This document shows positions 1,773-20,454 of a stretch of 33,073 nucleotides of DNA, one piece after another (within the stretch, counting starts at the first letter, position 1; each line of letters starts with the position of its first letter). The notes beneath the pieces are model-generated. The model was not told where the DNA came from. It ran no database searches and worked only from the letters and a program-made list of their open reading frames with translations. The DNA comes from Eubacteriales bacterium (GTDB lineage: Bacteria > Bacillota > Clostridia > Saccharofermentanales > UBA5734). A program made the position numbers and the translations under genes. The stretch covers positions 1-33,073 of the forward strand of contig JAQUEY010000012.1 in NCBI GenBank assembly GCA_028684955.1, written 5' to 3'.

Positions 1773-1895
1773 ATGGTTGATTTGAAGACGAAACCATTTT
1801 ATTTGAATGAGGAACAGATCGCCTGGGTGGAACAGATGATTGCAGGCACGCCCAACGACCTGGTCTGGTGTGATAAGTGGGAAACCCGGAGATAA
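1773..1895 (+). pseudogene. Remnant of a glycoside hydrolase family 3-like gene (first ~27 codons)
   Basis: A strong ribosome site (AAAGGAG, 1760-1766) precedes an ATG at 1773 and a 40-codon reading frame. Residues 1-24 (MVDLKTKPFYLNEEQ, then IAWVEQMIA) resemble the N-terminus of clostridial GH3 beta-glucosidase/beta-N-acetylglucosaminidase proteins, which typically go on as '..WVE..IASMT.EEKIGQLF'. After residue about 25 the similarity ends and a stop follows at 1893. The simplest reading is an internal deletion that removed a glycosidase gene but kept its promoter and start. The alternative is a real 40-aa peptide or leader ORF. The GH3 link is from memory of family sequences and moderately sure. 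Confidence 0.45.
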
Positions 1896-1968
1896 GAAGT
1901 CTTGCCAACGAATTGAACCATCCTGGCTTTGCAACCTGCAAAATTGTAACAATCGTGAGGACGCTATC

Positions 1969-3234
1969 ATGAACAAACCCAGAAATGTCGTCATTTCCCA
2001 GTCCGGAGGACCAACCCCGGTCATCAATAATTCCTTGCGCGGCATCATCGAAACGTGTCTTAGCAATCCGGATACCTTCGGCACCGTCTATGCCGGTTAC
2101 CATGGTGTCGAAGGAATCCTGCGCGAAGAACTGCTCAATCTCAGTTCCCAGGACCGCGACGAAATTGCCCTGCTGCGGACCACCCCTTCCGCCGGAGCGA
2201 TTGGCACCTGCCGCTACAAACTCAAGTCCAACCGTCCCCAGGATTTTGACCGCGTCATCGACGTGCTCAAGGCCCACGATGTCGGCTACCTGTTCTACAT
2301 TGGTGGCAACGATTCGATGGACACCGCCCACAAGATCAGCCAACTGGCTGCTCAGAGCGGGTATGAACTGATCGCGACTGGGGTGCCCAAGACGATCGAC
2401 AATGACGTCGGGGATACTGAATTCCAGATCATCGACCACACCCCGGGATATGGCAGTGTGGCCAGATACTGGACCTCGCTGATCCAGAACGCCAACGAAG
2501 AGAATCGCGGTTCTGCGACTGTCGACCCGATCCTGGTGATGCAGGCCATGGGCCGCAAAATTGGCTATATCCCGGCTGCTGCCCGCCTGGCCGATCCAGA
2601 TCGCGAGATGCCGCTTTTGATCTACATGTCTGAAGCAGGCCTGAGTTTGCCGGAAATTGCCGACCAGGTCGATCGCCAGATCCAGAAATCAGGACGGGCC
2701 ATGGTCGTGGTCAGTGAAGGCCTCGATGTCGGTGATCTGGGTGAAAGCAAAGATTCCTTTGGCCATACGCAGTTTGGTGCCAGCCAGACAACCGTTAGCC
2801 AGACGGTCGTCAACTACCTCAATGCCCATAAGCTCAAAGCACGTGGCCAGGTGCCAGGCATAGACCAGCGGGTCCAGATCAACCTGGCTTCACCGGTTGA
2901 TCTGGATGAAGCGTATCGCCTGGGCCAGCAGGCCGTGCTGGTTGCGCTGGAGTCAGGAAATGGCTACATGTCGACCCTGACCCGTCAGCCGGGCGCTGTG
3001 TACAACGTCCAGTATGGCAAAGTTGACCTGTCCCTGGTCGCCAACTCGGAGCGCACCTTCCCGGCTAGCTGGCTTACCGCTGAACGCAACGACGTTACGG
3101 ATGAGTTCCTGGCCTACGCCCGCCCCCTGATTGGCGAAGACTTCGTGACTGTACCCATGGTCAATGGCCTGATGCGGTTTGCCCGTTTTAAACCCATCTA
3201 TGCCGAAAAGAAATTGCCACCTTATCAGTTCTAA
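1969..3234 (+). CDS. pfp: Diphosphate--fructose-6-phosphate 1-phosphotransferase (PPi-PFK)
   Basis: 421 aa. The ATG at 1969 is chosen because GTGAGGA lies just upstream and the protein then begins MNKPRNVVISQSGGPTPVIN, the family's first strand and phosphate loop. The donor-site motif is GGNDSMDTA (residues 112-120). The Asp at 115, in place of the Gly of ATP-dependent enzymes (GGDGS), together with the Lys of PKTIDND (140-146), marks a pyrophosphate user; D144 is the expected catalytic base. It reversibly phosphorylates fructose-6-phosphate with PPi, and related enzymes also use sedoheptulose-7-phosphate. First intact gene of the P1 operon (then HAD phosphatase, 6PGDH, LarA homologue). The N of GGNDS is a mild deviation from the commoner GGDDS. 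Confidence 0.9.
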   Translation: MNKPRNVVISQSGGPTPVINNSLRGIIETCLSNPDTFGTVYAGYHGVEGILREELLNLSSQDRDEIALLRTTPSAGAIGTCRYKLKSNRPQDFDRVIDVLKAHDVGYLFYIGGNDSMDTAHKISQLAAQSGYELIATGVPKTIDNDVGDTEFQIIDHTPGYGSVARYWTSLIQNANEENRGSATVDPILVMQAMGRKIGYIPAAARLADPDREMPLLIYMSEAGLSLPEIADQVDRQIQKSGRAMVVVSEGLDVGDLGESKDSFGHTQFGASQTTVSQTVVNYLNAHKLKARGQVPGIDQRVQINLASPVDLDEAYRLGQQAVLVALESGNGYMSTLTRQPGAVYNVQYGKVDLSLVANSERTFPASWLTAERNDVTDEFLAYARPLIGEDFVTVPMVNGLMRFARFKPIYAEKKLPPYQF

Positions 3235-3321: not shown

Positions 3322-4209
3322 ATGAGTAACCCTGCCCAAGCACTGATGGACATGGAAAAGAAACATGACTACATGATCTGCGTCGACTCCGACGGCTGTG
3401 CTTTTGACGCGATGGAGATCAAACAGAAAGAGTGTTTTGCGCCCAACTTCATCAATGCCTACGATCTCCAGCCGGTCTCCAAATTTGCCCGCGAATGTTG
3501 GGAATTTGTCAACTTATATTCCGTCGACCGCGGCTGCAACCGGTTCATCGCCATCATCAAGGCGCTGGATCTGCTGGCTAAGCGCAAGGAAGTCATTGCC
3601 CGTGGTTTCAAAGTCCCGGACACCACTGGCCTACAGGAATGGGTCAAGGTTGAAACCAAACTGGGCAACCCGGCCCTCGAGGCGGCGATTGAGAAAACCG
3701 GCGATCCATCCCTGAAGCAAGCCATGCGCTACTCCATTCCGGCCAACAAGAGCGTCGAAGAAATCGTCCATGGTGTCCCGCCGTTCCCGCTGGTCCGCGA
3801 GTCCCTGGTCAAAGGGGCAGCCCAGGCTGAAATGGTCGTCGTTTCAGCCACACCAGCCGAAGCCCTGCAGCGTGAATGGACAGAACATGGCCTGATCGAG
3901 TACATGACTGTTGTGGCCGGCCAGGAAGTCGGCACCAAGAAAGAGCAGATCCGCCTCGCTATGTCCGGTCGCTATGATCCAGAAAAAGTGATCATGGTCG
4001 GTGACGCCATGGGTGATCTCGAAGCAGCCAAAGCCAATGGGGTGTTGTTCTACCCGATCAACCCCGGTTCCGAAGATGCTTCCTGGGCCCGCTTCCATAA
4101 CGAGGCCTTTGACAAATTCATCGATGGCACCTTCGCCGGCGACTATCAGGACGCCCTGATCGCAGAATTCAAGACCTATCTGCCAGTCAATCCCCCGTGG
4201 GAGACGTGA
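3322..4209 (+). CDS. HAD superfamily hydrolase, paralogue A
   Basis: 295 aa, start at ATG 3322 after AGGAGGA. Motif I is CVDSDGCAFD (nucleophile D22, acid/base D24), motif II is the Ser of VVVSATP (about 175), motif III is a Lys near 206-207 and motif IV is VGDAMGD (D228, D232). A large helical insertion between motifs I and II (residues about 30-165, including RECWEFVNLYSVDRGCNRF) would act as the cap domain that selects the substrate. Expected activity is a cytosolic Mg2+-dependent phosphatase on a small phosphorylated metabolite, plausibly a sugar phosphate given its place between PPi-PFK and 6PGDH. A close paralogue (more than half identical by eye) lies at 17932-18822 in the glucuronide-carrier operon, so both copies fall in the same predicted regulon. 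Exact substrate unknown. Confidence 0.85.
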   Translation: MSNPAQALMDMEKKHDYMICVDSDGCAFDAMEIKQKECFAPNFINAYDLQPVSKFARECWEFVNLYSVDRGCNRFIAIIKALDLLAKRKEVIARGFKVPDTTGLQEWVKVETKLGNPALEAAIEKTGDPSLKQAMRYSIPANKSVEEIVHGVPPFPLVRESLVKGAAQAEMVVVSATPAEALQREWTEHGLIEYMTVVAGQEVGTKKEQIRLAMSGRYDPEKVIMVGDAMGDLEAAKANGVLFYPINPGSEDASWARFHNEAFDKFIDGTFAGDYQDALIAEFKTYLPVNPPWET

Positions 4210-4292
4210 GAACTGTAACAAATCGACGGTCAGAATTTGGCGGGTTTGCTAATCTTTAGACAAGCAACCACATACAAAGATTGGAGATTCCT

Positions 4293-5696
4293 ATGAGTAA
4301 GCAACATATTGGCATGATTGGCCTGGGTGTCATGGGCAAGAACCTGGCCCTCAACATCGAAAACCACGGGTTCAGCGTCTCGGTCTACGATCCCTGGACC
4401 GACCGCGTAGACGAATTCATCAACGGTCTGCAAGGTGAAAACATCATCGGAGCCAAGAGCATCGAAGAATTTGTCAGCTCTCTGGAAACCCCGCGCCGGA
4501 TCATGATGATGATCAAAGACGGCAAGCCGGTCGATGACATGATCGCCTCTCTCAAGCCGTATCTCGACAAGGGTGACATCCTGATCGAAGGTGGCAACTC
4601 CTTCTTCAAGGACACCGTCCGCCGCAACCGTGAACTCGAAGCCGAAGGTTTCCGCTACATCGGCTCCGGTGTGTCCGGTGGCGAGGAGGGCGCCCGTAAG
4701 GGTCCGGCGCTGATGCCGGGCGGCCAGCCGGATGCTTATGAGCTGATTGCTCCGATCTTCAACGCCATCGCCGCCAAGGTGGATGGCGAACCCTGCAGCA
4801 CCTACATTGGTGCTGATGGCGCTGGCCATTATGTCAAAATGGTCCACAACGGCATCGAATATGGCGACATGCAGCTGATCACGGAGGCCTATTTCCTCCT
4901 CAAGGAAATCCTAGGTCTTTCCGCCGCAGAGCTGCACGAAGTCTTTGCCGACTGGAACAAAGGCGAACTCGACAGTTACCTGATCGAAATTACCGCCGAT
5001 ATCTTCACCAAAATAGATCCGGAAACCGGCAAGCCCGTCGTCGATATCATCAAGGACGCTGCCGGTCAGAAAGGCACCGGCAAGTGGACCAGCCAAAATG
5101 CACTTGACCTCGGTGTGGCAGCTCCGACGATCGCTGAAGCTGTCTTTGCCCGCTGCATGTCAGCCCTGAAGCCGGAACGCGTTGCAGCCAGCAGCCAGAT
5201 CCAGGGCCCTGGCGTGACGTTCACTGGTGACCGCACCGCTTTCATTGAGGCCGTGCGCAAGGCCCTGTACGCCAGCAAGATCTGTTCCTATGCCCAGGGC
5301 TTCTCCCTGATGAAAACAGCTTCCGAGGAATACGGCTGGGATCTCAAGCTCGGCAACATCGCCATGATTTTCCGTGGTGGCTGCATCATCCGGGCCCAGT
5401 TCCTGCACCAGATCAAAGATGCTTTTGCGGTTGATCCGGATCTGAATAATCTGATGCTGGCACCCTATTTCAAGAACACCCTTGAACAGTACCAAGTCGC
5501 TTGGCGTGAGGTTGTCGCCACGGCAGCCATCAACGGTGTAGCTGTCCCTGCATTCTCCAGCGCCTTGTCCTACTTTGACAGCTATCGCACCGCGACCTTG
5601 CCCGCTACCCTGCTCCAGGCCCAGCGCGACTATTTCGGTGCCCATACCTACCAGCGCGTGGACAAAGAAGGCACATTCCACACCCAGTGGTTCTGA
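4293..5696 (+). CDS. gnd: 6-phosphogluconate dehydrogenase, decarboxylating
   Basis: 467 aa, a standard length. The in-frame TTG at 4281 is rejected because it lies before the GGAG at 4283-4286; the ATG at 4293 gives [20 protein letters not shown], with the NAD(P) fingerprint [26 protein letters not shown] (about 125-144) and [14 protein letters not shown] (179-192, catalytic K182, with N186 and E189) are the diagnostic substrate-binding motifs. [15 protein letters not shown] is the C-terminal all-helical domain signature. It converts 6-phosphogluconate to ribulose-5-phosphate and CO2 with NAD(P)H formation. It sits in the PPi-PFK/HAD/LarA-homologue operon, which is not usual for gnd. That suggests gluconate or pentose-phosphate flux is induced together with uronates. 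Confidence 0.96.
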
Positions 5697-5755
5697 TCCG
5701 TTCACGCAGAACTGGATCGGAAAATGATCAAAACGAACAGAGAGAGGTGACCTCC

Positions 5756-7030
5756 ATGGTCAATGTATCGATCCGCGCCACCGACAAGCGCATCTCCGAT
5801 GAACAGCTGCTGGAAGCGCTGGCCAAAGCGATCGAGGGTCAGAATTTGAAAAAAGTCCTGCTTCTGCCACCGGACATGACCCGCCTGCATTCTTATGCCG
5901 GAAAAATCACAGCGCTGTACTACGAGTTGCTCAAAGAGACCTGCCAGGTTGACATCATGCCGGCCCTCGGTACTCATGACCCAATGACCGAAGCTGAATG
6001 CCTGGAATTTTTTGGCTCGCAAGTGCCTTATTCGGCCATTATCCCGCACCGCTGGAAAGATGATGTTGTGAACATCGGCACGGTACCGGCAGATTTCGTC
6101 CGCGACGTCAGCGAAGGTCTGATCGATTTTCCGATCGATGTCGAAGTCAACAAGCTCTTGCTCGACCCCAGTTATGACCTGGTCATCTCGGTTGGCCAGG
6201 TTGTGCCGCACGAAGTCGTCGGCATGGCCAATTACAGCAAAAATGTGTTTGTTGGCTGTGGTGGCAAGACGATCATCAACCGCTCTCATTTCCTGGGAGC
6301 CGTCTATGGCATGGAACGTGTCATGGGCAAAGATTTTTCCCCAGTTCGAAAAGTGTTCGACTATGCCGAAACCCATTTCATCAAGAACATGCCCCTGATG
6401 TACATCCTGACGGTCACGACTGTCGACGCAGGCGAGGTCAACCTTGAGGGCCTGTACATCGGTCGCGAACGATTCCTGTTTGAAAACGCTCTGGAACAAA
6501 GCCAACAAAGGAATTTGATTTTTCTCGACCGTGCCCCGAAAAAAGTGGTCGTCTATCTGGATGAGCGCGAGTTCAAGAGCACGTGGCTGGGCAACAAGTC
6601 CGTCTACCGGACTCGGATGGCGATTGCCGATGACGGCGAACTGTTGATCCTGGCCCCCGGCGTGCGCAAATTCGGTGAAGATGCTGGCATTGACGTGCTG
6701 ATCCGCAAATACGGCTATGTCGGCCGGATGAAAGTCCTCGAAGCCTATAAGGAAAACGAAGACCTGCAGGAGAATTTGTCTGCAGCTGCCCATCTGATTC
6801 ATGGCTCGTCCGATGGCCGGTTCTCGATCACGTATGCGGTCGAGAACTTGACCAGGGAAGAAGTCGAAGGGGTCAATTTCAACTACATGCAGCTGTCAGA
6901 CGCTCTAGCCCGCTACAATCCAGCCGAACTCAAGGATGGCTGGAACACCTTGCCGGACGGTGAGGAGATTTTCTACATCTCCAACCCGGCGATTGGCCTC
7001 TGGGCGGATAAGAAAAAATTCAACGCCTGA
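5756..7030 (+). CDS. LarA-family nickel-pincer racemase/epimerase (DUF2088), candidate aldonate 2-epimerase
   Basis: 424 aa, starting at ATG 5756 after GAGAGGTGA. Aligning by eye to Lactobacillus lactate racemase (recalled) conserves the key residues with exact spacing. R43 lies in PPDMTRLHS and H74 in GTHDP. H152 is followed ten residues later by K162, the Lys to which the pyridinium nickel-pincer cofactor is attached. Sixteen residues after that is H178, the nickel ligand. It should therefore bind the NPN cofactor and interconvert C2 epimers of a 2-hydroxy acid by hydride transfer. In this uronate/6PGDH context an aldonate such as D-mannonate or D-gluconate is a more likely substrate than lactate; this is inference. 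LarB, LarC and LarE cofactor-synthesis genes are not in the window and must be elsewhere. See the findings for a possible C-terminal frameshift. Confidence 0.85.
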   Translation: MVNVSIRATDKRISDEQLLEALAKAIEGQNLKKVLLLPPDMTRLHSYAGKITALYYELLKETCQVDIMPALGTHDPMTEAECLEFFGSQVPYSAIIPHRWKDDVVNIGTVPADFVRDVSEGLIDFPIDVEVNKLLLDPSYDLVISVGQVVPHEVVGMANYSKNVFVGCGGKTIINRSHFLGAVYGMERVMGKDFSPVRKVFDYAETHFIKNMPLMYILTVTTVDAGEVNLEGLYIGRERFLFENALEQSQQRNLIFLDRAPKKVVVYLDEREFKSTWLGNKSVYRTRMAIADDGELLILAPGVRKFGEDAGIDVLIRKYGYVGRMKVLEAYKENEDLQENLSAAAHLIHGSSDGRFSITYAVENLTREEVEGVNFNYMQLSDALARYNPAELKDGWNTLPDGEEIFYISNPAIGLWADKKKFNA

Positions 7031-7338: not shown

Positions 7339-8220
7339 ATGTCTATCCTACTTTCTGCTTTTGCCGATGAAGCAGCCCAAGATCTCGAAGGCCAGATTGC
7401 GGCCCTCATAGCCAACCGTGTACCGGGGATTGAACTGCGCACCGTTGACTCGATCAACGTGGCGGATTTCGATTCAACCATGACCGCCCGCGTCAAGACC
7501 GCGCTCGACCAGGCGTCGCTCAAGGTCAATTGCCTGGCCACACCCTTGGGGAAAGTCCAGATTGACAGTCCCTTGGCACCAGAGTTGGAGCGCCTGAAGC
7601 GTCTGAGCCAGACAGCCCATGCTCTGGACTGCCAGCGTCTGAGGATTTTCAGTTTCTATGTTCCAGCCGGTCGTTCTGCTGAGTACCGTGATGAAGTCAT
7701 GTTGCGTCTGGAGCGTCTGATCGAAGTGGCCGATGCCGAAGGTGTCCGACTGTTCCACGAAAATGAAAAAGATATCTACGGAGATGTTCTCGAACGGTGT
7801 GTCGACATTCACCAGACATTCCAGAACAAGCTCGGGGCGATTCTTGATCCGGCCAATTATGTCCAGGTTGGCAGTGACCCCCTCCAAGCTTTCAAGGACC
7901 TGGATTCCTGGATCGAATACCTGCACATCAAGGATTGCCGCCACACCGATGGCCACATCGTTGCTGCCGGTCAGGGCGACGGCCAGATCGCCGAGATCCT
8001 GAAGCTGTTTCTTGCCAAGCCTGGCCGGCAGTCGATCGCCATCGAGCCGCATTTGTTTGAGTTTGCGAGTTTGAAAACCTTGGAAATCCACATGATGGGT
8101 GATCCGGGCAGTGGCCAGGACGTTGGTGTCGGGGGCGATTACCCAGATGCACTGACAGCTTTTGCTGCCGGAATTTCTGCTTTCCGCACCCTCGCTGCCC
8201 AGCAGAACCAGGTCCTGTGA
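7339..8220 (+). CDS. Xylose-isomerase-like TIM-barrel protein (AP endonuclease 2 family sugar isomerase/epimerase)
   Basis: 293 aa, ATG at 7339 after GAGGTG. The protein follows the AP_endonuc_2 sugar isomerase/epimerase layout. Likely divalent-metal ligands are in the HENEKDIYG segment (about 140-148), the Asp of ILDPANY (D170), the His of YLHIKDCRH (H196) and the Glu of AIEPHLFEF (E236). No signal peptide. Members isomerise or epimerise free or phosphorylated sugars, keto-inositols and 3-keto-sugars, and some act as lyases; the substrate here is unknown. It overlaps by one base with the next gene, a Gfo/Idh oxidoreductase, so the two are translationally coupled and probably act on the same substrate. 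Predicted to be under promoter P2. Confidence 0.8.
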   Translation: MSILLSAFADEAAQDLEGQIAALIANRVPGIELRTVDSINVADFDSTMTARVKTALDQASLKVNCLATPLGKVQIDSPLAPELERLKRLSQTAHALDCQRLRIFSFYVPAGRSAEYRDEVMLRLERLIEVADAEGVRLFHENEKDIYGDVLERCVDIHQTFQNKLGAILDPANYVQVGSDPLQAFKDLDSWIEYLHIKDCRHTDGHIVAAGQGDGQIAEILKLFLAKPGRQSIAIEPHLFEFASLKTLEIHMMGDPGSGQDVGVGGDYPDALTAFAAGISAFRTLAAQQNQVL

Positions 8221-9308
8221 TGAGCGGCCTGCAGAACCAGACGATCCGGGTCGCCTTTGTCGGCTGCGGGACCATCGCGCCCCTTCACCTCATCGGCCTT
8301 CTGGCCCAGTGTGAGGCCGTTCAACTGGTCGGATTGGCGGATCCGGATCTCGATGCTGCGAGGTCTCTGGCCAGGCAGGCAGCTGAATTGTCCGGCCAGG
8401 GGGAGCCCGCCGTCTTCACGACGCAAGATGAGCTGATCGCCACCATCCACCCGGATGTTGTCCACATCCTGACCCCGCACCATACCCATGTTCAGCTGGC
8501 TTGCCAGGCTTTGCAGGCAGGGTGCCATGTGTTGCTGGAAAAACCAGCTGCTACCCAAAAGGCTGACCTGGAAATTCTGGCCGAAGCTGTCCAGAAGTCT
8601 GGCCGGCAATTCGGTGTCTGCCTGCAAAACCGGTACAACTTTGCAGCCAGGCAGGCCCGCCAGCTTCTGGCAGCCAAGACGTTCGGACCGGTTCTTGCCG
8701 CCCGTGGCTTTCTCACCTGGTGGCGGGATGACCAGTATTATCTGCAAAGCCCCTGGAGGGGACGCTGGGCGACCGAAGGCGGCGGCCTGATGATCAACCA
8801 GGCCATTCACACCCTGGATTTGCTGCTCTGGTTGGTTGATGAACCGGTCACCTCGGTCAAAGGCCATCTGCACACGGACCATCTGGAACATGTGATCGAA
8901 GTCGAAGACACCGCCAGCCTGCTACTGCGCTTTGAAACAGGAGCCACCGGTGTGTTCTATGCCACCAATGCCTATCCTGCCAGTTCAGAACCCTTTCTGG
9001 AAATTGTCTGTGAGCGGGCCATCCTGCGCCTGGAAGGCTCGGATCGCCTGACTGTCCTGGACCGATCGGGCAATCTGCTCGAACCTTTTGACCAAATTGT
9101 CAAAACGGGGGAGGATGCCGTTTCTGAAGCAGTGGACCAGTTCATCCCTGCTGGCAAATCCTACTGGGGCAAAAGCCATGCCCTGCTGATCGCTGACTTT
9201 TACCAGAAAATCCTTAAGGAGCAGCCCTTTGCGATCGGCCTGGAAGAAGGACGCAGGGCTCTGGATATCCTGCTCGACTTGTATGAAGCCAAACTGAGCA
9301 GGCAGTAA
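8220..9308 (+). CDS. Gfo/Idh/MocA family oxidoreductase, coupled to the TIM-barrel isomerase
   Basis: 362 aa from the ATG at 8220, which overlaps the preceding stop as TGATG; an in-frame GTG at 8217 is a less likely start. The Rossmann fingerprint is VAFVGCGTIAPLH, the central motif is EKPAA (the family's EKP) near residue 105, and the C-terminal domain has EGGGLMINQAIHTLDLLLW with the usual histidine of the catalytic helix. It is expected to oxidise or reduce a sugar hydroxyl with NAD(P). Pairing of a Gfo/Idh enzyme with an AP2-type TIM barrel is typical of inositol and 3-keto-sugar pathways. In this cluster the pair may process a side product or an oxidised glycoside; that is inference. Confidence 0.85.
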   Translation: MSGLQNQTIRVAFVGCGTIAPLHLIGLLAQCEAVQLVGLADPDLDAARSLARQAAELSGQGEPAVFTTQDELIATIHPDVVHILTPHHTHVQLACQALQAGCHVLLEKPAATQKADLEILAEAVQKSGRQFGVCLQNRYNFAARQARQLLAAKTFGPVLAARGFLTWWRDDQYYLQSPWRGRWATEGGGLMINQAIHTLDLLLWLVDEPVTSVKGHLHTDHLEHVIEVEDTASLLLRFETGATGVFYATNAYPASSEPFLEIVCERAILRLEGSDRLTVLDRSGNLLEPFDQIVKTGEDAVSEAVDQFIPAGKSYWGKSHALLIADFYQKILKEQPFAIGLEEGRRALDILLDLYEAKLSRQ

Positions 9309-9337
9309 CCAGATTCCTTTCAGGGCCGGGTGCAACC

Positions 9338-9400
9338 AGCAAGATTTGCATGCTAACCAGCAAATTTGCATCACCAGGACCTTTACCAGCCATTGATACT
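9338..9400 (+). promoter_or_regulatory. Activator-type promoter P3 of uxaC: tandem AGCAA sites plus -10 GATACT
   Basis: Two near-identical elements in direct repeat are AACCAGCAAGATTTGCAT (9334-9351) and AACCAGCAAATTTGCAT (9355-9371). Their AGCAA cores start at 9338 and 9359, 21 bp apart. GATACT at 9395-9400 lies exactly 36 bp after the second core. No -35 consensus. The geometry is the same as P1 and P4. Confidence 0.7.
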
Positions 9401-9440
9401 AGATACATTGATCCGTTGATGATTGATCAGGAGGATTTAC

Positions 9441-10838
9441 ATGCTTTCACCAGAGATGTTGCTGACCACACCCTCAGCCCGCCGTTTGTATCACCGCTAC
9501 GCCGAACATGCCCCTGTTTTCGATTACCATTGCCACCTGTCGGCCAAAGAAATCCTGGAGGACAAGGAATTTTCCGACATCAGTGACATGTGGCTGAAAC
9601 ACGACCATTATAAATGGCGTGCCATGCGCTTTGCTGGCGTACCGGAACGTCTGGTCACGGGCGATGGCTCCCCGCTGGAGAAATTCCGCGCTTTTGCCCA
9701 TACCGTGGCCCGGCTGGTCGGAAGCCCCTTGTACCACTGGGTTTACCTCGAATTGAAGACCTATTTTGGCATCACCGACCAACTGAGCGAAGCGACTGCT
9801 GATGAGATCTATGAGACCTGTAATCGCCAGATCCGGGAGCGGCACCTGCGTCCCTCTGACTTGATCCATCAGTCCAATGTTCGCCTGATCGGTACCACTG
9901 ATGATCCGACTGACACATTGGAAAGCCATCTTGAATTGGCCCGCCGGCCTGACAGTGTCTGCACAGTTGTACCGACTTTCCGCCCGGACCGGATCTTGAA
10001 CATCCATTTGCCTGATTACCGGGACTATCTTGGGCTGCTCTCTGAACGGGCCGGATTGGCAGGTATCACCGATTACGCGACGCTGCTCGATGCCATCCGC
10101 AATCGTGTTGCATTCTTCGATGAAGCCGGTTGCCTGATGTCCGACCATTCGTTGGAAAAACTGGACCTGCCGGAATCGAGCAGAGCGGAAGCTGACGCCG
10201 TGCTCAAAGCCCGCCTGTCCGGAGCCATCCTCACACCAGCCCAGATTGCAACTTTCCGCAGCCAGACCCTGACCGAACTGGCCAAGCTCTACCACGAACA
10301 TGAATGGGTCATGCAACTGCATATCGGTGCCCTGCGCAACAACAACCCGGTGAAATTCCAGAGCCTGGGGGCAGACGCTGGATTTGACATCATGAATGAC
10401 TTCCCGGTCGCCGAGCCGCTAGCCCAGTTTCTGGGCCGCCTGGAGGTTGCCGGAGCATTGCCGGCGACGATCCTGTACTCATTGAACAGCAAGGATAACC
10501 TGGTCCTTTCCACCCTGCCACACTGCTTCGCCGATGGTATCATGCCCGGCAAGGTCCAGTTTGGTTCAGCCTGGTGGTTCAATGATTCGAAAGACGGCAT
10601 GTATGAGCATATCAAGGCGATCGCCGCCCAGAGCATGCTGCCCTGGTTTGTTGGCATGCTCACTGATTCCAGAAGCTTTTTGTCCTACACCCGGCATGAT
10701 TATTTCCGCCGTGTCCTGTGCCAGTTTGTCGGTGAACACATCGACAATGGCGAATTCACGGCAACAGAAGCCATCGAGCAGGAAATCATCGAGGGTGTCT
10801 GCTTCCGCAACATCGGCCGCTACCTGAAACTGGTCTGA
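9441..10838 (+). CDS. uxaC: Glucuronate isomerase (uronate isomerase)
   Basis: 465 aa, close to the usual 465-470. The ATG at 9441 follows AGGAGG with good spacing; the upstream ATT-type extension is not needed. VFDYHCHLSAKEI (about 26-38, metal-binding H30 and H32) is the amidohydrolase-fold HxH motif of UxaC. The protein also contains NDFPVAEPLAQFLGRLE and SAWWFNDSKDGM, both typical of the family. It isomerises D-glucuronate to D-fructuronate (or galacturonate to tagaturonate), the first intracellular step after GusA. Co-transcribed with the MFS carrier 4 bp downstream, under promoter P3. Confidence 0.97.
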   Translation: MLSPEMLLTTPSARRLYHRYAEHAPVFDYHCHLSAKEILEDKEFSDISDMWLKHDHYKWRAMRFAGVPERLVTGDGSPLEKFRAFAHTVARLVGSPLYHWVYLELKTYFGITDQLSEATADEIYETCNRQIRERHLRPSDLIHQSNVRLIGTTDDPTDTLESHLELARRPDSVCTVVPTFRPDRILNIHLPDYRDYLGLLSERAGLAGITDYATLLDAIRNRVAFFDEAGCLMSDHSLEKLDLPESSRAEADAVLKARLSGAILTPAQIATFRSQTLTELAKLYHEHEWVMQLHIGALRNNNPVKFQSLGADAGFDIMNDFPVAEPLAQFLGRLEVAGALPATILYSLNSKDNLVLSTLPHCFADGIMPGKVQFGSAWWFNDSKDGMYEHIKAIAAQSMLPWFVGMLTDSRSFLSYTRHDYFRRVLCQFVGEHIDNGEFTATEAIEQEIIEGVCFRNIGRYLKLV

Positions 10839-10842: not shown

Positions 10843-12081
10843 GTGGCTGAAATCTCGGTTTTGCAGCCAGCTGGCACACTGCGCCTCTGGACACCGGCTT
10901 TCTCGATCATCACTCTGATCAGCTTTTTAATCGGACTGGTGCAGCTGTCTTTGTCGACCAATCTGCCCCTCTATGTTGTCGGTGCCTATGACTCTACATC
11001 CAGCGCGGGTGCGATGGTGGGGGCCTTTGCCCTGGCTGCCATGCTGGGACGGCCTTTTGCCGGACAGATCATCGATCGTCTGTCCAAACCTGGACTCTAT
11101 CTGGCCGGAACAGCCTTATTCACAGCCGGAGTTGCCATGCTGCTCTATCAGGGATCGCTGGTCTGGCTGATTGCCGCGCGTATCGTCCAGGGCTTGGGCT
11201 TCAGCCTGGTCTCGACAGTCGCCGGAGCCATGATCGCTGATGTCCTTCATCCGCAGCGCCTGGGCTCTGGCATTGCCATCTACACGGTCACAGGGTCCCT
11301 GGCCAATGCCTTGGGCCCCGTTGCAGGCCTGACCATTGCCCAAAGCTTCGGCTATCCGGTCTTTTTCAAGACCATCTTGGTGACCAGCGTTTTGACGGTT
11401 GTGATCATCCCCGCTCTTTTTGGCCGCCAGACAGGGTCTCGCCACATTGCTTCAGAACACGATACAGAATCTTTGCCCATTGACCTGCACCAGGCAGACG
11501 CTTCAAAGAGCAGCCGGCAGCGCAAGATCTCTTCTCTGATTGAACCGACGGCCGTGGCACCCGCTTCTGTGATGCTTTTCCTGGCGATCACCTATGGTGC
11601 CTTGCTCGGTTTCATGCCGATTCTGGCCCAGACGAAAAACCTCGGATCTGCAGGGACCTATTTTGCCATCCAGTCTGGCGCAGTCTTAGCCGTCCGCTTA
11701 GTCATGCCAGCCCTTGTGAGCCGTCTGTCCACCCTCCGTCTGGTTCGTCTGGCGATCGGTTTGCTGATACCTGCCCTTGCTATTCTGATAGCCTCCTGCC
11801 ACCCGATCCTGTTCTACAGCTCTGCAGTCCTTTATGGTGCTGGCTTTGGCCTGGCCTTTCCCCTGATGAATACAGTGGTTTTCAAACGTTGTCCACCCCA
11901 GGCCCGTGGCCGGGCCAATGCCACGTTCTATCTGGCGCTGGACCTCGGCATTGGTGCCGGAACGATTCTGCTGGGTTACATGGCCAAGTGGCTGCAGCTG
12001 GAAGCCGTTTTTGTCACCGCCCTGGTCGTTGCCATCCTGGCTTTTCTGGTTGCACCGCGACTCCTTAAAACAGTCAGATAA
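10843..12081 (+). CDS. MFS transporter, possible hexuronate carrier
   Basis: 412 aa with about 12 hydrophobic segments and a charged central loop (about residues 190-230). The RPFAGQIIDR motif after TM2 matches the MFS loop 2-3 signature (G-x-x-x-D-R). The start is a GTG at 10843, only 4 bp after the uxaC stop and without an obvious ribosome site, so translational coupling to uxaC is likely; the exact start is uncertain. Located in the inner membrane. Its place in the uxaC operon suggests import of free hexuronate, while the GPH carrier near gusA would import glucuronides. A sugar or acid exporter of the YhhS type is an alternative. Confidence 0.8.
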   Translation: MAEISVLQPAGTLRLWTPAFSIITLISFLIGLVQLSLSTNLPLYVVGAYDSTSSAGAMVGAFALAAMLGRPFAGQIIDRLSKPGLYLAGTALFTAGVAMLLYQGSLVWLIAARIVQGLGFSLVSTVAGAMIADVLHPQRLGSGIAIYTVTGSLANALGPVAGLTIAQSFGYPVFFKTILVTSVLTVVIIPALFGRQTGSRHIASEHDTESLPIDLHQADASKSSRQRKISSLIEPTAVAPASVMLFLAITYGALLGFMPILAQTKNLGSAGTYFAIQSGAVLAVRLVMPALVSRLSTLRLVRLAIGLLIPALAILIASCHPILFYSSAVLYGAGFGLAFPLMNTVVFKRCPPQARGRANATFYLALDLGIGAGTILLGYMAKWLQLEAVFVTALVVAILAFLVAPRLLKTVR

Positions 12082-12138: not shown

Positions 12139-12207
12139 TTAATGAGTTGTTGATTGGGGCTAGCTGCTGAAAAATCCAGCAGCAGGGCAAGAGAGCAGGT
12201 TAATGGA

Positions 12208-13086
12208 ATGAAAAACGGCCGACAGCGATTCCAGACCCGACAGCACATGATGAGCAGCGATTACGAAATCTATCACTATTTTGACCGGGGCATGACCAGC
12301 ATCCATTTGCACCACCATGACTTTTTCGAGGTCTATTTCCTGATTGAGGGCCGTGTCACCTCCCAGATCGAAGGCCGCAACTACGATCTCAAACCCGGGG
12401 ACATCGTCCTGATGAATACCAGTGAATTGCACCAGACGATTATCCATGATCTCGACAAGCCCTATGAACGGATCGTCCTCTGGCTCAACCGGAATTTTCT
12501 CAAGGAGCTGTCGACAGAGCAGAGCGATCTGGCTTTGTGCTTTGAGGGCCCGCAGCACCGCAACGTCATCCGGACGGATGTCGACCAACAGCAGCACTTC
12601 CGCGGTTTGCTCAACAAGCTCCTTAACTTGAAAAGCTACACTGGGTTTGGCCAGGACCTGTATCCCAGGACTTACTTGCTCGAGATCCTGCTTTTCCTGA
12701 ATGAAGAGATCACCCTGGTCAAACAGCGGCCGAAGATCGAGGTGCGCAAAGATCGCCTGATTGACGCCGTGATTGAACATATTGGCGAGCATATTGAAGA
12801 AGAAATTAAAATCGACAACCTGACCGAGGTTTTCTTTCTCAGCAAATTCCATTTGTGCCGAGAGTTCAAGAACCAGACCGGGACGACCCTGCACCGGTAC
12901 ATCATCCAGAAAAAGTTGATCCGGGCCAAAGAGTTGATCCTGAAGAATATTCCGATCACCGAAGTCTACCAGAAAGCTGGGTTCGGCGATTACTCCAACT
13001 TTTTCCGGGCTTTCAGGAATGAGTACAACATGACACCGCGCCAGTACTACGATTATGTTGCCCATGGTGTGGTTGAGGAAGTGTGA
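12208..13086 (+). CDS. AraC/XylS-family transcriptional regulator, probable uronate regulator
   Basis: 292 aa from the ATG at 12208; an upstream TTG at 12154 is also open but lacks a ribosome site. The N-terminal cupin ligand domain (about 20-110) contains HLHHHDFFEVYFLIEGR and LKPGDIVLMNTSELHQ. The C-terminal double helix-turn-helix (about 190-285) contains LSKFHLCREFKNQTGTTLHR and ends in the family signature AGFGDYSNFFRAFRNEY, then MTPRQY. Lying between the uxaC and uxuB operons, it is the obvious candidate to bind the 21-bp-spaced AGCAA direct repeats found before six units. The repeats are tandem rather than palindromic, as expected for AraC proteins. Inducer unknown; a glucuronide, glucuronate or fructuronate is plausible. 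It is followed by a strong terminator. Confidence 0.92.
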   Translation: MKNGRQRFQTRQHMMSSDYEIYHYFDRGMTSIHLHHHDFFEVYFLIEGRVTSQIEGRNYDLKPGDIVLMNTSELHQTIIHDLDKPYERIVLWLNRNFLKELSTEQSDLALCFEGPQHRNVIRTDVDQQQHFRGLLNKLLNLKSYTGFGQDLYPRTYLLEILLFLNEEITLVKQRPKIEVRKDRLIDAVIEHIGEHIEEEIKIDNLTEVFFLSKFHLCREFKNQTGTTLHRYIIQKKLIRAKELILKNIPITEVYQKAGFGDYSNFFRAFRNEYNMTPRQYYDYVAHGVVEEV

Positions 13087-13318: not shown

Positions 13319-14920
13319 ATGAAGTTGAATCTCAAGGAATTGCAAAACCAGGAACAATGGCTGGCCAAAGGGTACCAGCTGCCCCAATTCGATATCGAAG
13401 CGGTACGCGCCCGGACCGTGGCCGCACCGATGTGGCTCCACTTCGGTGCGGGCAACATCTTTCGCGCATTCCCTGCCACCGTGCACCAGAAGCTGCTGAA
13501 CCAGGGCCTGTGCGATCGCGGCATCATCGTTGGCGAGGCCTTTGATGAGGAAATCCTCGACAAAGCTTACACGCCTTTTGATAACCTGAGCGTGACCGTG
13601 TCGCTCAACTCCGACGGCTCCCTGGAAAAGGAGATCGTCGCCAGTGTCGTACACACCGTCAAACCGAGCACGGATATGGACGAAATGGTCCGGATCTTCC
13701 AGGCACCTTCGCTGCAGATGGTCAGCTTCACCATCACCGAAAAGGGTTATTCGGTCAAGGGTGCTGACGGCTCCTACCTCAAATGGATTGCAGCAGATTT
13801 CGATGCTCTGCCTGAAAAGAAAGCTTCCAGCCTGGTCAGTCTCCTGACCTATCTGATGTACCAGCGCTATCTGGCCGGTCAGCTGCCGGTCGCACTGGTC
13901 AGCATGGACAACTGCTCGCACAACGGAACCATGCTCTACGATGCTGCCATGACGTTTGTCTCCGAATGGCAGAAGCGCGGCCTGGTCGAGCTGGGCTTTG
14001 CCGGCTACCTGAACAATCCGGAGAAAGTCTCTTTCAACTGGAGCATGATCGACAAAATCACCCCCCGCCCCTCGGATGTCGTGAAAAAGACGCTCGAAGC
14101 CGATGGTTTTGAAGACACAGATCTGATCATCACCGCCAAGAACACCTTCACAGCAGCGTTTGTCAACGCAGAACCGACCCAGTACCTGGTCGTCGAAGAC
14201 TGGTTCCCCAACGGTCGTCCGGCCCTGGAAAATGGTGGCGTCCTGTTCACCGACCGTGAGACAGTCGACAAGATCGAGACGATGAAAGTCACCACCTGTC
14301 TCAATCCCCTGCATACCATCATGGCCATCTATGGCTGCCTCTTAAACCTGCCTACCATCGCCGATATTGCTGCTGATCCGCAGCTGAAAGCCTTCATCGA
14401 AAAAGTCGGTTATGACGAGAGCATGCCAGTTGTGGTCGATCCCGGCGTCATCAAGCCGATGGATTTCATCCGCACCGTCATTGAAGTCCGTTTCCCGAAC
14501 CCTTACCTGCCGGACGCTCCGCAGCGCATTGCCACCGACACCTCGCAAAAGATCCCGGTCCGTTTTGGCCAGACCCTGAAGGCTTACATCAAACGGGGCC
14601 AGGGTGAAGAGAAGAACCTCATGTACATCCCGTTGTTCTTTGCCGGCTGGCTGCGCTACCTGCTCGCAGTTGACGATCAGGGTCAGGCCATGCAACTCTC
14701 CTCCGACCCGATGCTTGAAGAACTCCAGGCCAAGTTGTCTGGTATCGAATTCGGCAGCAAAGGACCCTTCGAAGACATCCTGCTGCCGATCCTGGCCAAT
14801 GACCGCATCTTTGGTGTCGACTTGGTCGCCCAGGGAATCGCTCCGCTGGTTATCCGTTACTTCACGGAACTGGTTGCCGGTCCTGGTGCCGTCCGTGCCA
14901 CTTTGGTAAAGTATCTGTAA
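13319..14920 (+). CDS. uxuB: Fructuronate reductase / D-mannonate oxidoreductase
   Basis: 533 aa, start at ATG 13319 after GAGGTAA. It belongs to the polyol-specific long-chain dehydrogenase (mannitol dehydrogenase) family. The N-terminal Rossmann part contains MWLHFGAGNIFRAF, the family's GxGxxxR-type nucleotide loop. The mid-region has NWSMIDKITPRPSD, equivalent to the VDRITP signature. The C-terminal helical domain starts around residue 320 and carries TTCLNPLHTIMAIYGCLL. The length, slightly over 530, matches the clostridial UxuB-like group. It reduces D-fructuronate to D-mannonate with NADH in the cytosol. First gene of the operon uxuB-uxuA-eda-kdgK. Tagaturonate reductase (UxaB) is the alternative, but the neighbouring mannonate dehydratase argues for UxuB. 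Confidence 0.92.
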   Translation: MKLNLKELQNQEQWLAKGYQLPQFDIEAVRARTVAAPMWLHFGAGNIFRAFPATVHQKLLNQGLCDRGIIVGEAFDEEILDKAYTPFDNLSVTVSLNSDGSLEKEIVASVVHTVKPSTDMDEMVRIFQAPSLQMVSFTITEKGYSVKGADGSYLKWIAADFDALPEKKASSLVSLLTYLMYQRYLAGQLPVALVSMDNCSHNGTMLYDAAMTFVSEWQKRGLVELGFAGYLNNPEKVSFNWSMIDKITPRPSDVVKKTLEADGFEDTDLIITAKNTFTAAFVNAEPTQYLVVEDWFPNGRPALENGGVLFTDRETVDKIETMKVTTCLNPLHTIMAIYGCLLNLPTIADIAADPQLKAFIEKVGYDESMPVVVDPGVIKPMDFIRTVIEVRFPNPYLPDAPQRIATDTSQKIPVRFGQTLKAYIKRGQGEEKNLMYIPLFFAGWLRYLLAVDDQGQAMQLSSDPMLEELQAKLSGIEFGSKGPFEDILLPILANDRIFGVDLVAQGIAPLVIRYFTELVAGPGAVRATLVKYL

Positions 14921-14978: not shown

Positions 14979-15023
14979 CCCATCGACACTACTAAAATCA
15001 AATAAGAAGTGAGGTATAGCCCC

Positions 15024-16064
15024 TTGAAACTGTCTTTTCGCTGGTATGGTCCGCAGGACCCGGTCTCCCTTGCCTACATCCGCCAGATTCCATCCATGCA
15101 CTCGATCGTCACTGCTGTCTACGATGTGCCTGTTGGCGAGGTCTGGAGCCATGAAAGCATCGCTGCCCTGAAGCAGGATATTGAGGCCAATGGTCTGCAT
15201 TTCGACGTAATTGAAAGTGTTCCGGTCCACGAGGACATCAAGCTGGGCCTGCCCACCCGTGACCAGTACATTGCCAATTATTGCGAAAACATCCGCCGTC
15301 TCGGCCAGGCGGGGGTCAAGGTCATCTGCTATAATTTCATGCCTGTTTTTGACTGGACCCGCACCCAGCTCGAAAAAGAGCTGCCCGATGGTTCCACCGC
15401 GCTCGTCTACTATGTCGAGGATTTAAAGAAAATGGATCCGCTCACGGGCGAACTCTCCCTGCCCGGCTGGGATAGTTCCTACGCAAAAGAAGATCTCCAG
15501 CGCCTCTTTGACCTTTACAAAGAGGTTGATGAGGAAAAGCTCTGGGAAAACCTGGCCTACTTCCTCAAGGCCATCATCCCTGTGGCCGAAGAAGCCGGTG
15601 TCAAGATGGCCATCCACCCCGATGATCCGCCATTTTCGATTTTCGGCCTGCCGCGCATCATCAATTGCGAAAAAAGCCTCGATCGTTTCCTCAAGATTGT
15701 GGACAGCCCCTACAATGGCCTGACCTTATGTACCGGCTCCCTGGGTAGCGGCAGTTTCAACGACATCCCGTATCTGGTCGACAAATATGCTGCCATGGGC
15801 CGCATCCATTTCATGCACATCCGCAACGTCAAATTACTGGACGATGGCAGTTTTGAAGAATCCGCCCATCTGTCCTCCTATGGTTCGCTCGACATGGTTG
15901 CCATTGTGAAGGCCCTTTACAAGAACGGTTTTGATGGTTACATCCGTCCGGACCATGGCCGCATGATCTGGGGCGAAACCGGCAAGCCAGGCTATGGCCT
16001 GTATGACCGTGCCCTCGGCGCATCGTACCTGACCGGCATCTGGGAAACCCTGTCCAAAGCCTGA
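15024..16064 (+). CDS. uxuA: Mannonate dehydratase
   Basis: 346 aa if it starts at the TTG at 15024. This codon is 7 nt after GTGAGGT (15010-15016) and gives (M)[20 protein letters not shown], the canonical UxuA start. The in-frame GTG at 15009 overlaps the ribosome site and is unlikely. Further signatures are [19 protein letters not shown] (about 195-213), CTGSLGSG and, near the C-terminus, [14 protein letters not shown], with the conserved catalytic/metal His and Asp. A TIM-barrel Mn2+/Fe2+ enzyme that dehydrates D-mannonate to 2-keto-3-deoxygluconate. Slightly shorter than the roughly 390-aa enterobacterial enzyme but normal for Bacillota. Confidence 0.95.
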
Positions 16065-16096: not shown

Positions 16097-16747
16097 ATGG
16101 ACCCCATTACACAAAAAGTTGCATCCATCGGCATTCTGCCCGTGATCAAGCTGGACCGTCCGGATACCGACGCAGCACCCCTGGCCCAGGCCCTGGTGGC
16201 CGGCGGAGTACCTGCTGCCGAAATCACCTTCCGGGCCGAAGGCGCTGACCGGGCCATCCGGATCATGCGCGAGCAATTCCCGGACATGCTGGTCGGAGCT
16301 GGCACCGTCCTTACGATCGAGCAAGTGGAAAAAGCCCATGCTGCCGGCGCCCAGTTCATCGTGTCGCCCGGCCTGAACCCCAAAACCGTTGCCGCCTGCC
16401 AGAAGCTGGGCCTGCCGATTTTCCCAGGCTGCATCACACCGACCGAAATCGAAGAGGCCCTCAGCCTGGGCCTTTCGACGGTCAAGTTCTTCCCAGCCGA
16501 ACAAGCCGGGGGCCTGGCCCGGATCAAGGCCATGAGCGCTCCCTTCAACATGGTCAAATTCATGCCCACCGGCGGTATCAACCTGCAAAACCTGGCCAGC
16601 TATTTAAGCCAGTCCTGCATCGTCGCCTGTGGTGGCTCGTACATGGTCACCGACGAATTGATCAACAACCAGCAATGGGACAAGATCAGCGACCTGTGCC
16701 GCCAATCTGTGGCCATCATCCAGCAGGCAAGAGGTGAAAGCAAATGA
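16097..16747 (+). CDS. eda: KDPG aldolase (2-dehydro-3-deoxy-phosphogluconate / KHG aldolase)
   Basis: 216 aa, start at ATG 16097 after AAGGAGAT. Class I aldolase TIM barrel. The general base is E42 in AAEITFR, the Schiff-base Lys is K130 in STVKFFPAE, and the phosphate site is the FMPTGGI segment near residue 155. VGAGTVL and VSPGLNP are the usual strand motifs. It cleaves KDPG into pyruvate and glyceraldehyde-3-phosphate, the last step of the uronate route. The final ATGA overlaps the start of kdgK, so the two are translationally coupled. Confidence 0.96.
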   Translation: MDPITQKVASIGILPVIKLDRPDTDAAPLAQALVAGGVPAAEITFRAEGADRAIRIMREQFPDMLVGAGTVLTIEQVEKAHAAGAQFIVSPGLNPKTVAACQKLGLPIFPGCITPTEIEEALSLGLSTVKFFPAEQAGGLARIKAMSAPFNMVKFMPTGGINLQNLASYLSQSCIVACGGSYMVTDELINNQQWDKISDLCRQSVAIIQQARGESK

Positions 16748-17769
16748 GCAAGCGTGTCGTCACTTTCGGTGAATTGATGCTCCGTCTGGCGCCCCCTGGC
16801 TACGAACGGTTTGCCCAGGCCAGCACCTTTGGTGCGACCTTTGGCGGCGGTGAAGCCAATGTCGCTGTCTCCCTGGCCAATTTTGGTCTGGAAGCGGATT
16901 TCGTCAGCAAACTGCCCAAGCATGAAATCGGCCAGGCAGCCGTCAATTCGTTGCGCCGCTATGGCGTCGGGACCCGGCACATCGTCCGCGGCGGCAACCG
17001 GGTTGGCATCTATTTCCTGGAAAAAGGAGCTTCCCAGCGTCCATCCAAAGTCATCTATGATCGCGCCCATTCTGCCATCGCTGAAGCCGAAGTGGCCGAA
17101 TTCGACTGGGATGCCATCCTGGCTGGAGCGGACTGGTTCCATTTCACCGGCATCACCCCCGCGCTGGGCGAGAAAGCAGCTGCCCTGACCCTGGCCGCCG
17201 TCCAGGCTGCCCGCCGACTCGGTGTCACGGTCTCCTGTGACCTCAACTACCGCAAGAATTTGTGGAGCAAAGAGCAGGCCCGCGAGGTCATGACGGGCCT
17301 TGCCCCTTACATCGATGTCTGCATTGCCAATGAAGAAGACTCCGCCGATGTCTTTGGCATCCGGGCTGCAGCCACCGATATCACGGGTGGACACCTCAGT
17401 CATGAGGGCTACCGCGATGTCGCCCGCCAGCTGGCTGAAACCTTTGGCTTCAAAAAGGTAGCCATTACCCTGCGTGGATCGATCTCAGCCAATGACAATA
17501 ACTGGGCAGCCCTGCTCTATGACGGCAAGGATTATTGTTTCTCCAAGAATTACCTGGTTCACATCGTCGACCGTGTCGGCGGTGGTGACAGTTTCGGTGG
17601 CGGCCTGATCTATGCGCTGCTGAACGATTACAGTTCCCAGGACAGCATTGAATATGCCGTCGCAGCGTCCTGTCTCAAACACTCCATCGAGGGAGACTTC
17701 AATCTGGTCAGCGTCGATGAAGTGACAAAACTCGCCCAGGGCGATGCTTCCGGTCGCGTCCAGCGCTGA
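16744..17769 (+). CDS. kdgK: 2-dehydro-3-deoxygluconokinase (PfkB family)
   Basis: 341 aa. The ATG at 16744 overlaps the eda stop by 4 nt, with GAGGTGA upstream. PfkB-fold sugar kinase: N-terminal GGGEANVAVSLANFG (about 34-48) for substrate binding and C-terminal DRVGGGDSFGGGL (276-288), whose D282 is the expected catalytic base in the anion-hole motif. NYRKNLW (about 168-174) is common in KDG kinases. It phosphorylates KDG to KDPG with ATP. Last gene of the uxuB operon, followed by a strong terminator. Confidence 0.94.
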   Translation: MSKRVVTFGELMLRLAPPGYERFAQASTFGATFGGGEANVAVSLANFGLEADFVSKLPKHEIGQAAVNSLRRYGVGTRHIVRGGNRVGIYFLEKGASQRPSKVIYDRAHSAIAEAEVAEFDWDAILAGADWFHFTGITPALGEKAAALTLAAVQAARRLGVTVSCDLNYRKNLWSKEQAREVMTGLAPYIDVCIANEEDSADVFGIRAAATDITGGHLSHEGYRDVARQLAETFGFKKVAITLRGSISANDNNWAALLYDGKDYCFSKNYLVHIVDRVGGGDSFGGGLIYALLNDYSSQDSIEYAVAASCLKHSIEGDFNLVSVDEVTKLAQGDASGRVQR

Positions 17770-17931: not shown

Positions 17932-18822
17932 TTAATCGTGTTTCCAGGTCGGTGTAGAAGGAAGGCATTCCTTGAACGTCTCGATCAGGCTGGCTTCATA
18001 AGGGCCAGCGTAGGATCCAGCGAGGAATTTGGTAAAAGCTTCGTCATGGAACAGCTGCCAGGACTCGTCTTCTTTGCCAGGCAGGATCGGGAAGAACAGG
18101 ACGCCGTTGTCTTTGGCGGACTCCAGGTCACCCAGGGCATCCCCGATCATGAGGACTTTGTCCGTCTCATAGCGTCCTTCGATTGCCTGGCGGATCTGGG
18201 CGGTCTTGTTACCGACTTCCTGACCTGCCAGCGCACTGAGATGATCGAACAGACCGTGTTCGGTCCATTCCCGGGTGATGGTTTCCTGGGCAGCTGCCGA
18301 GATGACCACGACATCTGCCTGGGCAGCACTTTGGGCCAGGGATTCCCGGACACCGGGGAAGGGCGGGATGCCATGGACGATTTTGTCAACGGCCTCATTG
18401 ACATCGAGTGAATAAGCCAGTGCTTTTCCCAGCAAAGGATCCTGGGTTTTGCTGATCGCTTCTTTCAGGGCCGGATTGCCCAGGCGGTTTTCTGTGCTGA
18501 CCCATTGCTCAAGGCTGGCCAGGTCAGGAATGGCAAAGCCGCGCTTTTTGACTTCGGGACGCTCGGCTAACAGTGCTATGGCTTTCAAGGGGCCAATGAA
18601 ACGATTACAGCCGCGGTCAACGGAATACAGGTTGACGAAATCCCAGCACTCGCGGGCGTATTTGGCGACTGCCTGCAGGCCGAAGTTGTTGATGAAGGCA
18701 GGGCAGAAGCATTCCTTGTGCTTTATCTCCATGACATCAAAAACGGTGCCATCGCTGTCGATGCAGACGAGATGATCATGCTGCTTGTTGAGTTGACTCA
18801 GGGGTTTTCCAGAAGGGTTCAT
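17932..18822 (-). CDS. HAD superfamily hydrolase, paralogue B
   Basis: 296 aa. The ATG at 18822 follows AAGGAGAT. Same motif layout as the copy at 3322-4209: CIDSDGTVFD (D22, D24), VVVISAAAQE (motif II Ser), GNKTAQI (motif III Lys) and MIGDALGDLESAKDNGVLF (motif IV). The helical cap includes RECWDFVNLYSVDRGCNRF, nearly identical to paralogue A, so the cap-defined substrate is probably the same or close. It lies 133 bp downstream of the GPH symporter on the same strand and is probably its operon partner. Expected role: cytosolic phosphatase on a phosphorylated sugar or sugar acid. The specific substrate is not known to me. Confidence 0.85.
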   Translation of the reverse strand: MNPSGKPLSQLNKQHDHLVCIDSDGTVFDVMEIKHKECFCPAFINNFGLQAVAKYARECWDFVNLYSVDRGCNRFIGPLKAIALLAERPEVKKRGFAIPDLASLEQWVSTENRLGNPALKEAISKTQDPLLGKALAYSLDVNEAVDKIVHGIPPFPGVRESLAQSAAQADVVVISAAAQETITREWTEHGLFDHLSALAGQEVGNKTAQIRQAIEGRYETDKVLMIGDALGDLESAKDNGVLFFPILPGKEDESWQLFHDEAFTKFLAGSYAGPYEASLIETFKECLPSTPTWKHD

Positions 18823-18873
18823 AGCGGTGTATCTCCTTGAAGGCTGGATGTGTGGATCTTGCTGACAACAAAT

Positions 18874-18911
18874 GACACTGGTCTGGCTTATGGAGAAGCC
18901 AGGCCAGTGTC
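18874..18911 (-). other. 16-bp hairpin between the GPH symporter and HAD genes
   Basis: GACACTGGTCTGGCTT (18874-18889) and AAGCCAGGCCAGTGTC (18896-18911) form a 16-bp stem with one imperfect pair and a 6-nt loop. No T run follows on the minus strand, so it may be a leaky terminator or a stabilising 3' structure for the symporter part of the message. Confidence 0.6.
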
Positions 18912-18955
18912 TATCAGAGGGGCAAGTCGGAAATAGGTTGGATCATGACTTGGCT

Positions 18956-20425: not shown

Positions 20426-20454
20426 TGGGGAAACCTCCTTCGTTTGTTATCACC

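Follow-up and report, generated by a model that had tools for sequence, protein, structure and literature searches.

The open reading frame at positions 5756–7030 (+) of the DNA analysed here (the window, a stretch of 33,073 nucleotides from an Eubacteriales bacterium) was confirmed to be an intact gene of the LarA superfamily, belonging to LarAH group 18 (LarAH18). As judged from its sequence and a structural model, its product, P0001, is probably an NPN-dependent 2-epimerase interconverting D-mannonate and D-gluconate. This activity had been put forward in the original prediction, and support for it came from the family, the fold, the signature residues, the conserved neighbouring genes and a relative in which GntK is fused to LarAH18. 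What was observed directly is the homology, the residues, the fold, the gene company and the cofactor genes. Through this enzyme, uronic acids from plant material would probably feed into the pentose phosphate pathway. The features of the window were as follows.

1840–3234, + strand: PPi-type phosphofructokinase (PFK) paralogue, ORF start uncertain (NF010675, 387.5 bits, cut-off 273)
3322–4209, + strand: HAD-family hydrolase (Pfam HAD_2)
4281–5696, + strand: Gnd, 6-phosphogluconate dehydrogenase (731.7 bits, cut-off 413)
5740–5749, + strand: ribosome-binding-site-like GA-rich stretch ahead of the LarAH18 ATG (reading of the sequence)
5756–7030, + strand: LarAH group 18 protein P0001, 424 aa, probable NPN-dependent D-mannonate/D-gluconate 2-epimerase (NF052594, Lar_N, residues, model)
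9423–10838, + strand: UxaC, uronate isomerase (551.4 bits, cut-off 387)
10843–12081, + strand: MFS transporter (Pfam MFS_1)
12154–13086, + strand: AraC-family regulator (Pfam HTH_18, AraC_binding)
13319–14920, + strand: mannitol-dehydrogenase-family protein, called UxuB-like from its context alone (under the NCBIfam cut-offs)
15009–16064, + strand: UxuA, mannonate dehydratase (495.4 bits, cut-off 191)
16097–16747, + strand: Eda, KDPG aldolase (257.9 bits, cut-off 241)
16744–17769, + strand: PfkB-family kinase, probable KdgK (KDG kinase; Pfam PfkB; NF041633, 596 bits, cut-off 700)
20661–22493, + strand: GusA, beta-glucuronidase (777.4 bits, cut-off 544)

The LarAH18 gene was found directly after that of 6-phosphogluconate dehydrogenase, as originally described, with the end of Gnd (5696) 59 bases upstream. 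Gnd was the sole PF00393 match in the organism's own genome (G000). UxaC, the UxuB-like protein, UxuA, Eda, KdgK and GusA were all encoded downstream of LarAH18 on the same strand, and the UxuA-Eda-KdgK branch was completely encoded in the window. The earlier placement of the gene under a uronate promoter found no backing, the promoter-like sites being at shuffle level (13 versus 10.0, sd 3.2). The statement that the window holds no gluconate kinase was true, and none was recognised in the own genome either. The PFK was one of four PFK matches in that genome. It was also observed that genes for a TIM-barrel isomerase and a Gfo/Idh/MocA dehydrogenase form a pair at 7339–9308 (+), between LarAH18 and UxaC, which also occurs in loci L050 and L052. 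A second HAD protein (17941–18810, –), 59% identical to that at 3322–4209, is convergent to KdgK, and a 552-aa ORF (18872–20530, +) upstream of the beta-glucuronidase gave no Pfam or NCBIfam match and had a 30% match in L145.

The LarAH18 frame runs from the ATG at 5756 to a stop codon ending at 7030. P0001 matched NCBIfam model NF052594 over its full length with 644.6 bits (cut-off 500, E 5e-194); this model is NPN_18_hexonate, LarAH group 18, described as "nickel-dependent putative hexonate epimerase". Pfam recognised Lar_N only, and both P0001 and the NF052594 model had a single match in the own genome. Assignment as a lactate racemase was rejected (NF033504, 26.4 bits versus a cut-off of 460), as was assignment as a malate racemase of LarAH5/6 (NF052593 and NF052595, 44.1 and 32.8 bits versus cut-offs of 500 and 462). 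H152, K162 and H178 were found at spacings of 10 and 16, equal to those of H174, K184 and H200 in LarA (numbering after the part of PMC7583248 available). The equivalents of the NPN-binding residues R75, K184 and H200 of LarA were R43, K162 and H178, and those of the catalytic residues D72, H108, H174 and K298 were D40, H74, H152 and K281. The set was thus complete, bearing out the earlier view of a true nickel-pincer enzyme.

The usual GntE signature E, V, A, H (PMC11770544, in the part available), at the positions of LarA F175, F176, W358 and T359, was found in P0001 as E153, V154, A345 and H346, and the F175-F176 loop of lactate racemase was not found in P0001, which has E153 and V154 there. 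A345-H346 (the AAH motif) was matched to LarA W358/T359 putatively, because it was placed by sequence alignment with 4NAR and not from a cofactor-bound structure. A genome_contigs scan gave 577 relatives of P0001, and the gene-company counts used the best 80 of these. An alignment of 83 sequences was made from the window protein, the proteins of these 80 best loci (of 577) and two plasmid proteins, in which D40, R43, H74, H152, E153, V154, K162, H178, W277, K281 and H346 were identical in 83/83 and A345 in 82/83. One LarAH18 frame (L054 of genome G167, 8708–10042) is broken by one stop, reflecting a pseudogene or a sequencing error.

The AlphaFold model of P0001 (26 sequences in the input) had a pLDDT of 91.2 and a pTM of 0.87. 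In a comparison with the PDB (VIA), the LarA fold was recovered in 12 LarA-type entries at Z 21.5 to 41.0, the next row being at 6.4. The best of them was 4NAR (Z 41.0, 394 residues, 2.5 Å), and the remaining LarA-type entries were at Z 29.8 or less; Foldseek likewise gave a TM score of 0.81 to 4NAR and of 0.71 or less to the others. The available part of PMC7583248 identifies 4NAR as GntE2 of Thermotoga maritima, a D-mannonate/D-gluconate 2-epimerase.

A genome lacking larB, larC and larE would have refuted the original prediction. It was found that LarE, LarB and LarC, each over its NCBIfam cut-off, are encoded head to tail as an operon in the own genome (contig C265; L049: 3308–4165, 4162–4878 and 4875–6182). 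For the wider pattern, 35 of 188 genomes of the order were followed up, namely 25 with LarAH18 (23 over the cut-off and two partial) and 10 hand-picked ones without it; a 57-residue LarAH18 fragment in G177 was left out of this set. LarC was found in 13/25 of the LarAH18-positive genomes and LarE over the cut-off in 15/25, and each of them in 1/10 of the negative ones. Both were below the cut-off or absent in 10/25 of the LarAH18-positive genomes searched (G169, G170, G172, G175, G178, G186, G187, G003, G022 and G045); not all of these genomes are complete, though completeness reaches 96–97% in G170 and G187. That the protein is a relic without cofactor might be read from these ten relatives and from the internal stop in the G167 copy. 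It is nevertheless extremely improbable, given larEBC in the own genome and catalytic residues that were all invariant (83/83, with the best 80 of 577 loci).

The gene company of LarAH18 in relatives was dominated by Gnd, which was found in 64 of the 80 best loci (of 577) and at ≤1.5 kb from LarAH18 in 55 of them. A PfkB-type kinase of ~358 aa, distinct from KdgK, was present in 44/80, and the commonest core orders were kinase-Gnd-LarAH18 (28/80) and LarAH18-Gnd-kinase (14/80). One such PfkB-type kinase is encoded at 10261–11337 of L065, and carriers of the cassette include the cultivable relatives Sporobacter termitidis (L108) and Peloplasma aerotolerans (L104). Enzymes of the uronate branch were rarer in the same best 80 of 577 loci, with UxaC in 14/80, UxuB-like proteins in 6/80 and UxuA in 4/80. 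When all neighbours up to 6 kb away were clustered without bias, an SDR cluster appeared in 26 of these 80 loci and UxaE in 12; the representative of the SDR cluster was a D-mannonate oxidoreductase, with 446 bits against a cut-off of 281. In 43 control loci from the order searches, which had genes other than LarAH18 as anchors and flanks of ~1.5 kb, neither Gnd nor the PfkB-type kinase was found. No Gnd was seen in 16 of the 80 best loci (of 577), of which 11 had less than 5 kb on one side and five had flanks of 5 kb or more in each direction. L069 and L116 appear to be identical to records of G183 and G186 contigs, so the 80 loci and the genomes of the order are not fully independent. In G169 and G170, the PfkB-type kinase and Gnd stand together on one contig (L204, L205), and LarAH18 is on a separate contig, where it diverges from zwf and has a gene for a 3H-domain regulator as its neighbour.

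Three unrelated types of kinase were found to adjoin LarAH18: the PfkB type, the FGGY gluconokinase type and GntK. The FGGY kinase stands beside LarAH18 in genus g8 (L058–L060) and scored 456 bits, below the cut-off of 648.55. In Saccharobesus litoralis, one 589-aa ORF comprised both GntK (184.8 bits, cut-off 113.75) and LarAH18 (618.9 bits, cut-off 500), followed downstream by LarE, LarB, a UxaE-like protein and gnd. Catenovulum adriaticum has the run uxaC-TRAP-GntK-LarAH18-larC-larE-larB, in which GntK and LarAH18 are two neighbouring genes and not one fused frame, LarAH18 starting at the very base where GntK ends. GntK next to or fused with LarAH18 is the strongest single hint for gluconate as the product side. 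In a literature search, no description of a PfkB or ribokinase-family gluconate kinase or of a lactate racemase-gluconokinase fusion was found, and mannonate kinase was treated only in PMC6978723 among the texts found for mannonate kinase and 6-phosphomannonate; the available part of the plasmid-host paper PMC7953866 mentions neither gluconokinase nor racemase. The PfkB-family kinase is a candidate for a new gluconate or mannonate kinase.

In the own genome, no PfkB-type partner kinase, GntK or other gluconate kinase was recognised. Eight of its ten FGGY matches were read as proteins, the other two being a fragment at the C222 contig end and a match ranked below the rows listed; the best model was XylB for seven (one over the cut-off) and GlpK for one (over the cut-off), and from these scores they look like xylulokinases or glycerol kinases. 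KdgK was considered as the PfkB-type partner and rejected for the relatives, since single loci contain the two together (L063, L105, L127 and L143) and the partner is 24–33% identical to the window's KdgK. The PPi-type PFK as a replacement kinase was not supported, as its relatives (51–56% identity) were also found in genomes with the PfkB-type kinase; against the PFK and the HAD protein alike stands the congener G182, which lacks the divergent PFK class and has no HAD protein beside Gnd.

At the genome level, Gnd was found in 25/25 LarAH18-positive versus 2/10 LarAH18-negative genomes, never in more than one copy, and the PfkB-type kinase (>200 bits) in 15/25 versus 0/10, with an intermediate match (192.8 bits) in G173, which is without LarAH18. 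UxuA (at least 150 bits) was found in 9/25 of the positive genomes. In seven of these 25 (genera g1 and g5, the own genome included), no PfkB-type kinase, linked FGGY gluconokinase or GntK over the cut-off was detected. Matches to the HAD protein at 3322–4209 with at least 57% identity were confined to g1 and g5 among the 35 genomes searched and occurred in 7/7 of these seven; in G182 the only copy is beside KdgK. In the congener G185, where Gnd and LarAH18 are retained, there was no UxuA match and PfkB matches were only weak, which argues that there at least the route must lead to 6-phosphogluconate. A match to zwf was absent from the own genome and present in all four congeners, although Gnd is there in single copy; the missing zwf may be an assembly gap or a real loss.

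By homology, K162, H178 and R43 would bind the nickel-pincer cofactor, with H74 and H152 serving as acid/base on C2. D-mannonate and D-gluconate would probably be interconverted by proton-coupled hydride transfer. In the family at large, UxaC and a UxuB-type reductase would supply mannonate, which LarAH18, a sugar-acid kinase and Gnd would process in turn, the uronate carbon thereby reaching ribulose 5-phosphate. The same reaction is presumed for the own organism, where, with no partner kinase recognised, flux may also run from gluconate via mannonate and UxuA to KDG and on to pyruvate and glyceraldehyde 3-phosphate. Substrate, direction and kinase are what we infer. The path to Gnd may here be completed by a kinase that escaped recognition; otherwise the epimerase would supply UxuA-Eda-KdgK from gluconate. 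That the latter is its main task, with Gnd a neighbour without pathway link, is possible though clearly the less favoured option: all branch enzymes are in the window and the gluconate kinase was not recognised, but Gnd was kept in 64/80 loci versus 4/80 for UxuA (best 80 of 577), and G185 does without UxuA. It would be the same reaction reversed, so that it rivals the proposed function in direction only.

The order of the two steps might also be the opposite one. A mannonate kinase, in relatives the PfkB-type protein, would then supply 6-phosphomannonate, and LarAH18, as a 6-phospho-D-mannonate 2-epimerase, would yield 6-phosphogluconate for Gnd. Both activities were measured in Lactobacillus suebicus extracts according to the available text of PMC6978723, whose kinase-first chemistry means that 6-phosphomannonate could be the substrate of LarAH18, and the same gene cassette fits equally. 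Known GntEs have a high KM for unphosphorylated D-mannonate (9.4 to 120 mM in the accessible parts of PMC11770544 and PMC7583248), so the native substrate of P0001 may differ; R285, R287 and H349 were invariant (83/83, with the best 80 of 577 loci) and, speculatively, could hold a phosphate. On the other hand, GntE1, GntE2 and LarAH15 are reported to turn over free D-mannonate, the partners in some relatives are of gluconokinase types (GntK over the cut-off, FGGY at 456 bits below 648.55), and Escherichia coli GntK cannot use mannonate, as cited in the available part of PMC6978723. Phosphorylation before epimerization is hence considered rather unlikely. With the same low likelihood, group 18 would represent the missing 6-phospho-D-mannonate 2-epimerases and the PfkB-type partner (~358 aa, 44/80 of the best 80 of 577 loci) the missing mannonate kinase; this would constitute a widespread, redox-neutral route from uronate to ribulose 5-phosphate in anaerobic Firmicutes, in which a nickel-pincer enzyme acts on the phosphate of a sugar acid. 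Quite unlikely is another sugar acid, a hexarate or another hexonate epimer, as native substrate. Glucarate/mannarate was suggested for group 19 because of a KM of 120 mM (PMC7583248, part available), but gnd, the gluconokinase fusion and mannonate oxidoreductase as company point to mannonate and gluconate. The interconversion of free D-mannonate and D-gluconate is preferred, and the order of epimerization and phosphorylation can now be put to a direct test on two purified proteins.

The group as such had been described before, its function being no more than a guess. In the available part of the 2020 survey PMC7583248, groups 18, 19 and 20 are united by loop and helix signatures, conversion of D-mannonate to D-gluconate is demonstrated for members of groups 19 and 20, and group 18, not among the 13 proteins assayed there, is hypothesised to catalyse "epimerization of a hexonate". 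The present analysis narrows the group 18 substrate to mannonate/gluconate or the corresponding 6-phosphates, and through the fusion, the kinase-Gnd-epimerase cassette and the GntE2-like fold the hypothesis of 2020 becomes a concrete, testable assignment. A nickel-pincer enzyme would then belong to a main uronate route of anaerobes from rumen, gut and digesters. New here are the evidence for group 18 in a mannonate/gluconate role, its fusion to a gluconokinase and, as a candidate partner, the kinase of PfkB type.

Compared with known systems, P0001 matched LarAH group 18 (NF052594) full length with no difference found. Lactiplantibacillus plantarum LarA has the same fold (5huq, Z 28.6) and shares D72, R75, H108, H174, K184, H200 and K298, but its F175-F176 is replaced by E153-V154 and the identity in the structural alignment is 14%. 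The L. suebicus route resembles the proposed one in starting from mannonate and ending with 6-phosphogluconate and Gnd; it differs in that the kinase acts first and that it is known from extracts without genes assigned (PMC6978723, as far as available). Nickel and racemase are nowhere mentioned in the accessible text of that paper, which credits the idea of a path from mannonate via gluconate to the pentose phosphates to Rodionova 2012. The closest solved structure is GntE2/LarAH20 of T. maritima (4NAR, Z 41.0), which is 26% identical to P0001, belongs to a different LarAH group and has S156 in the substrate loop where P0001 has V154. In T. maritima, gnd, uxaE, gntE and gntK are already known from one regulated locus (PMC3750489, part available).
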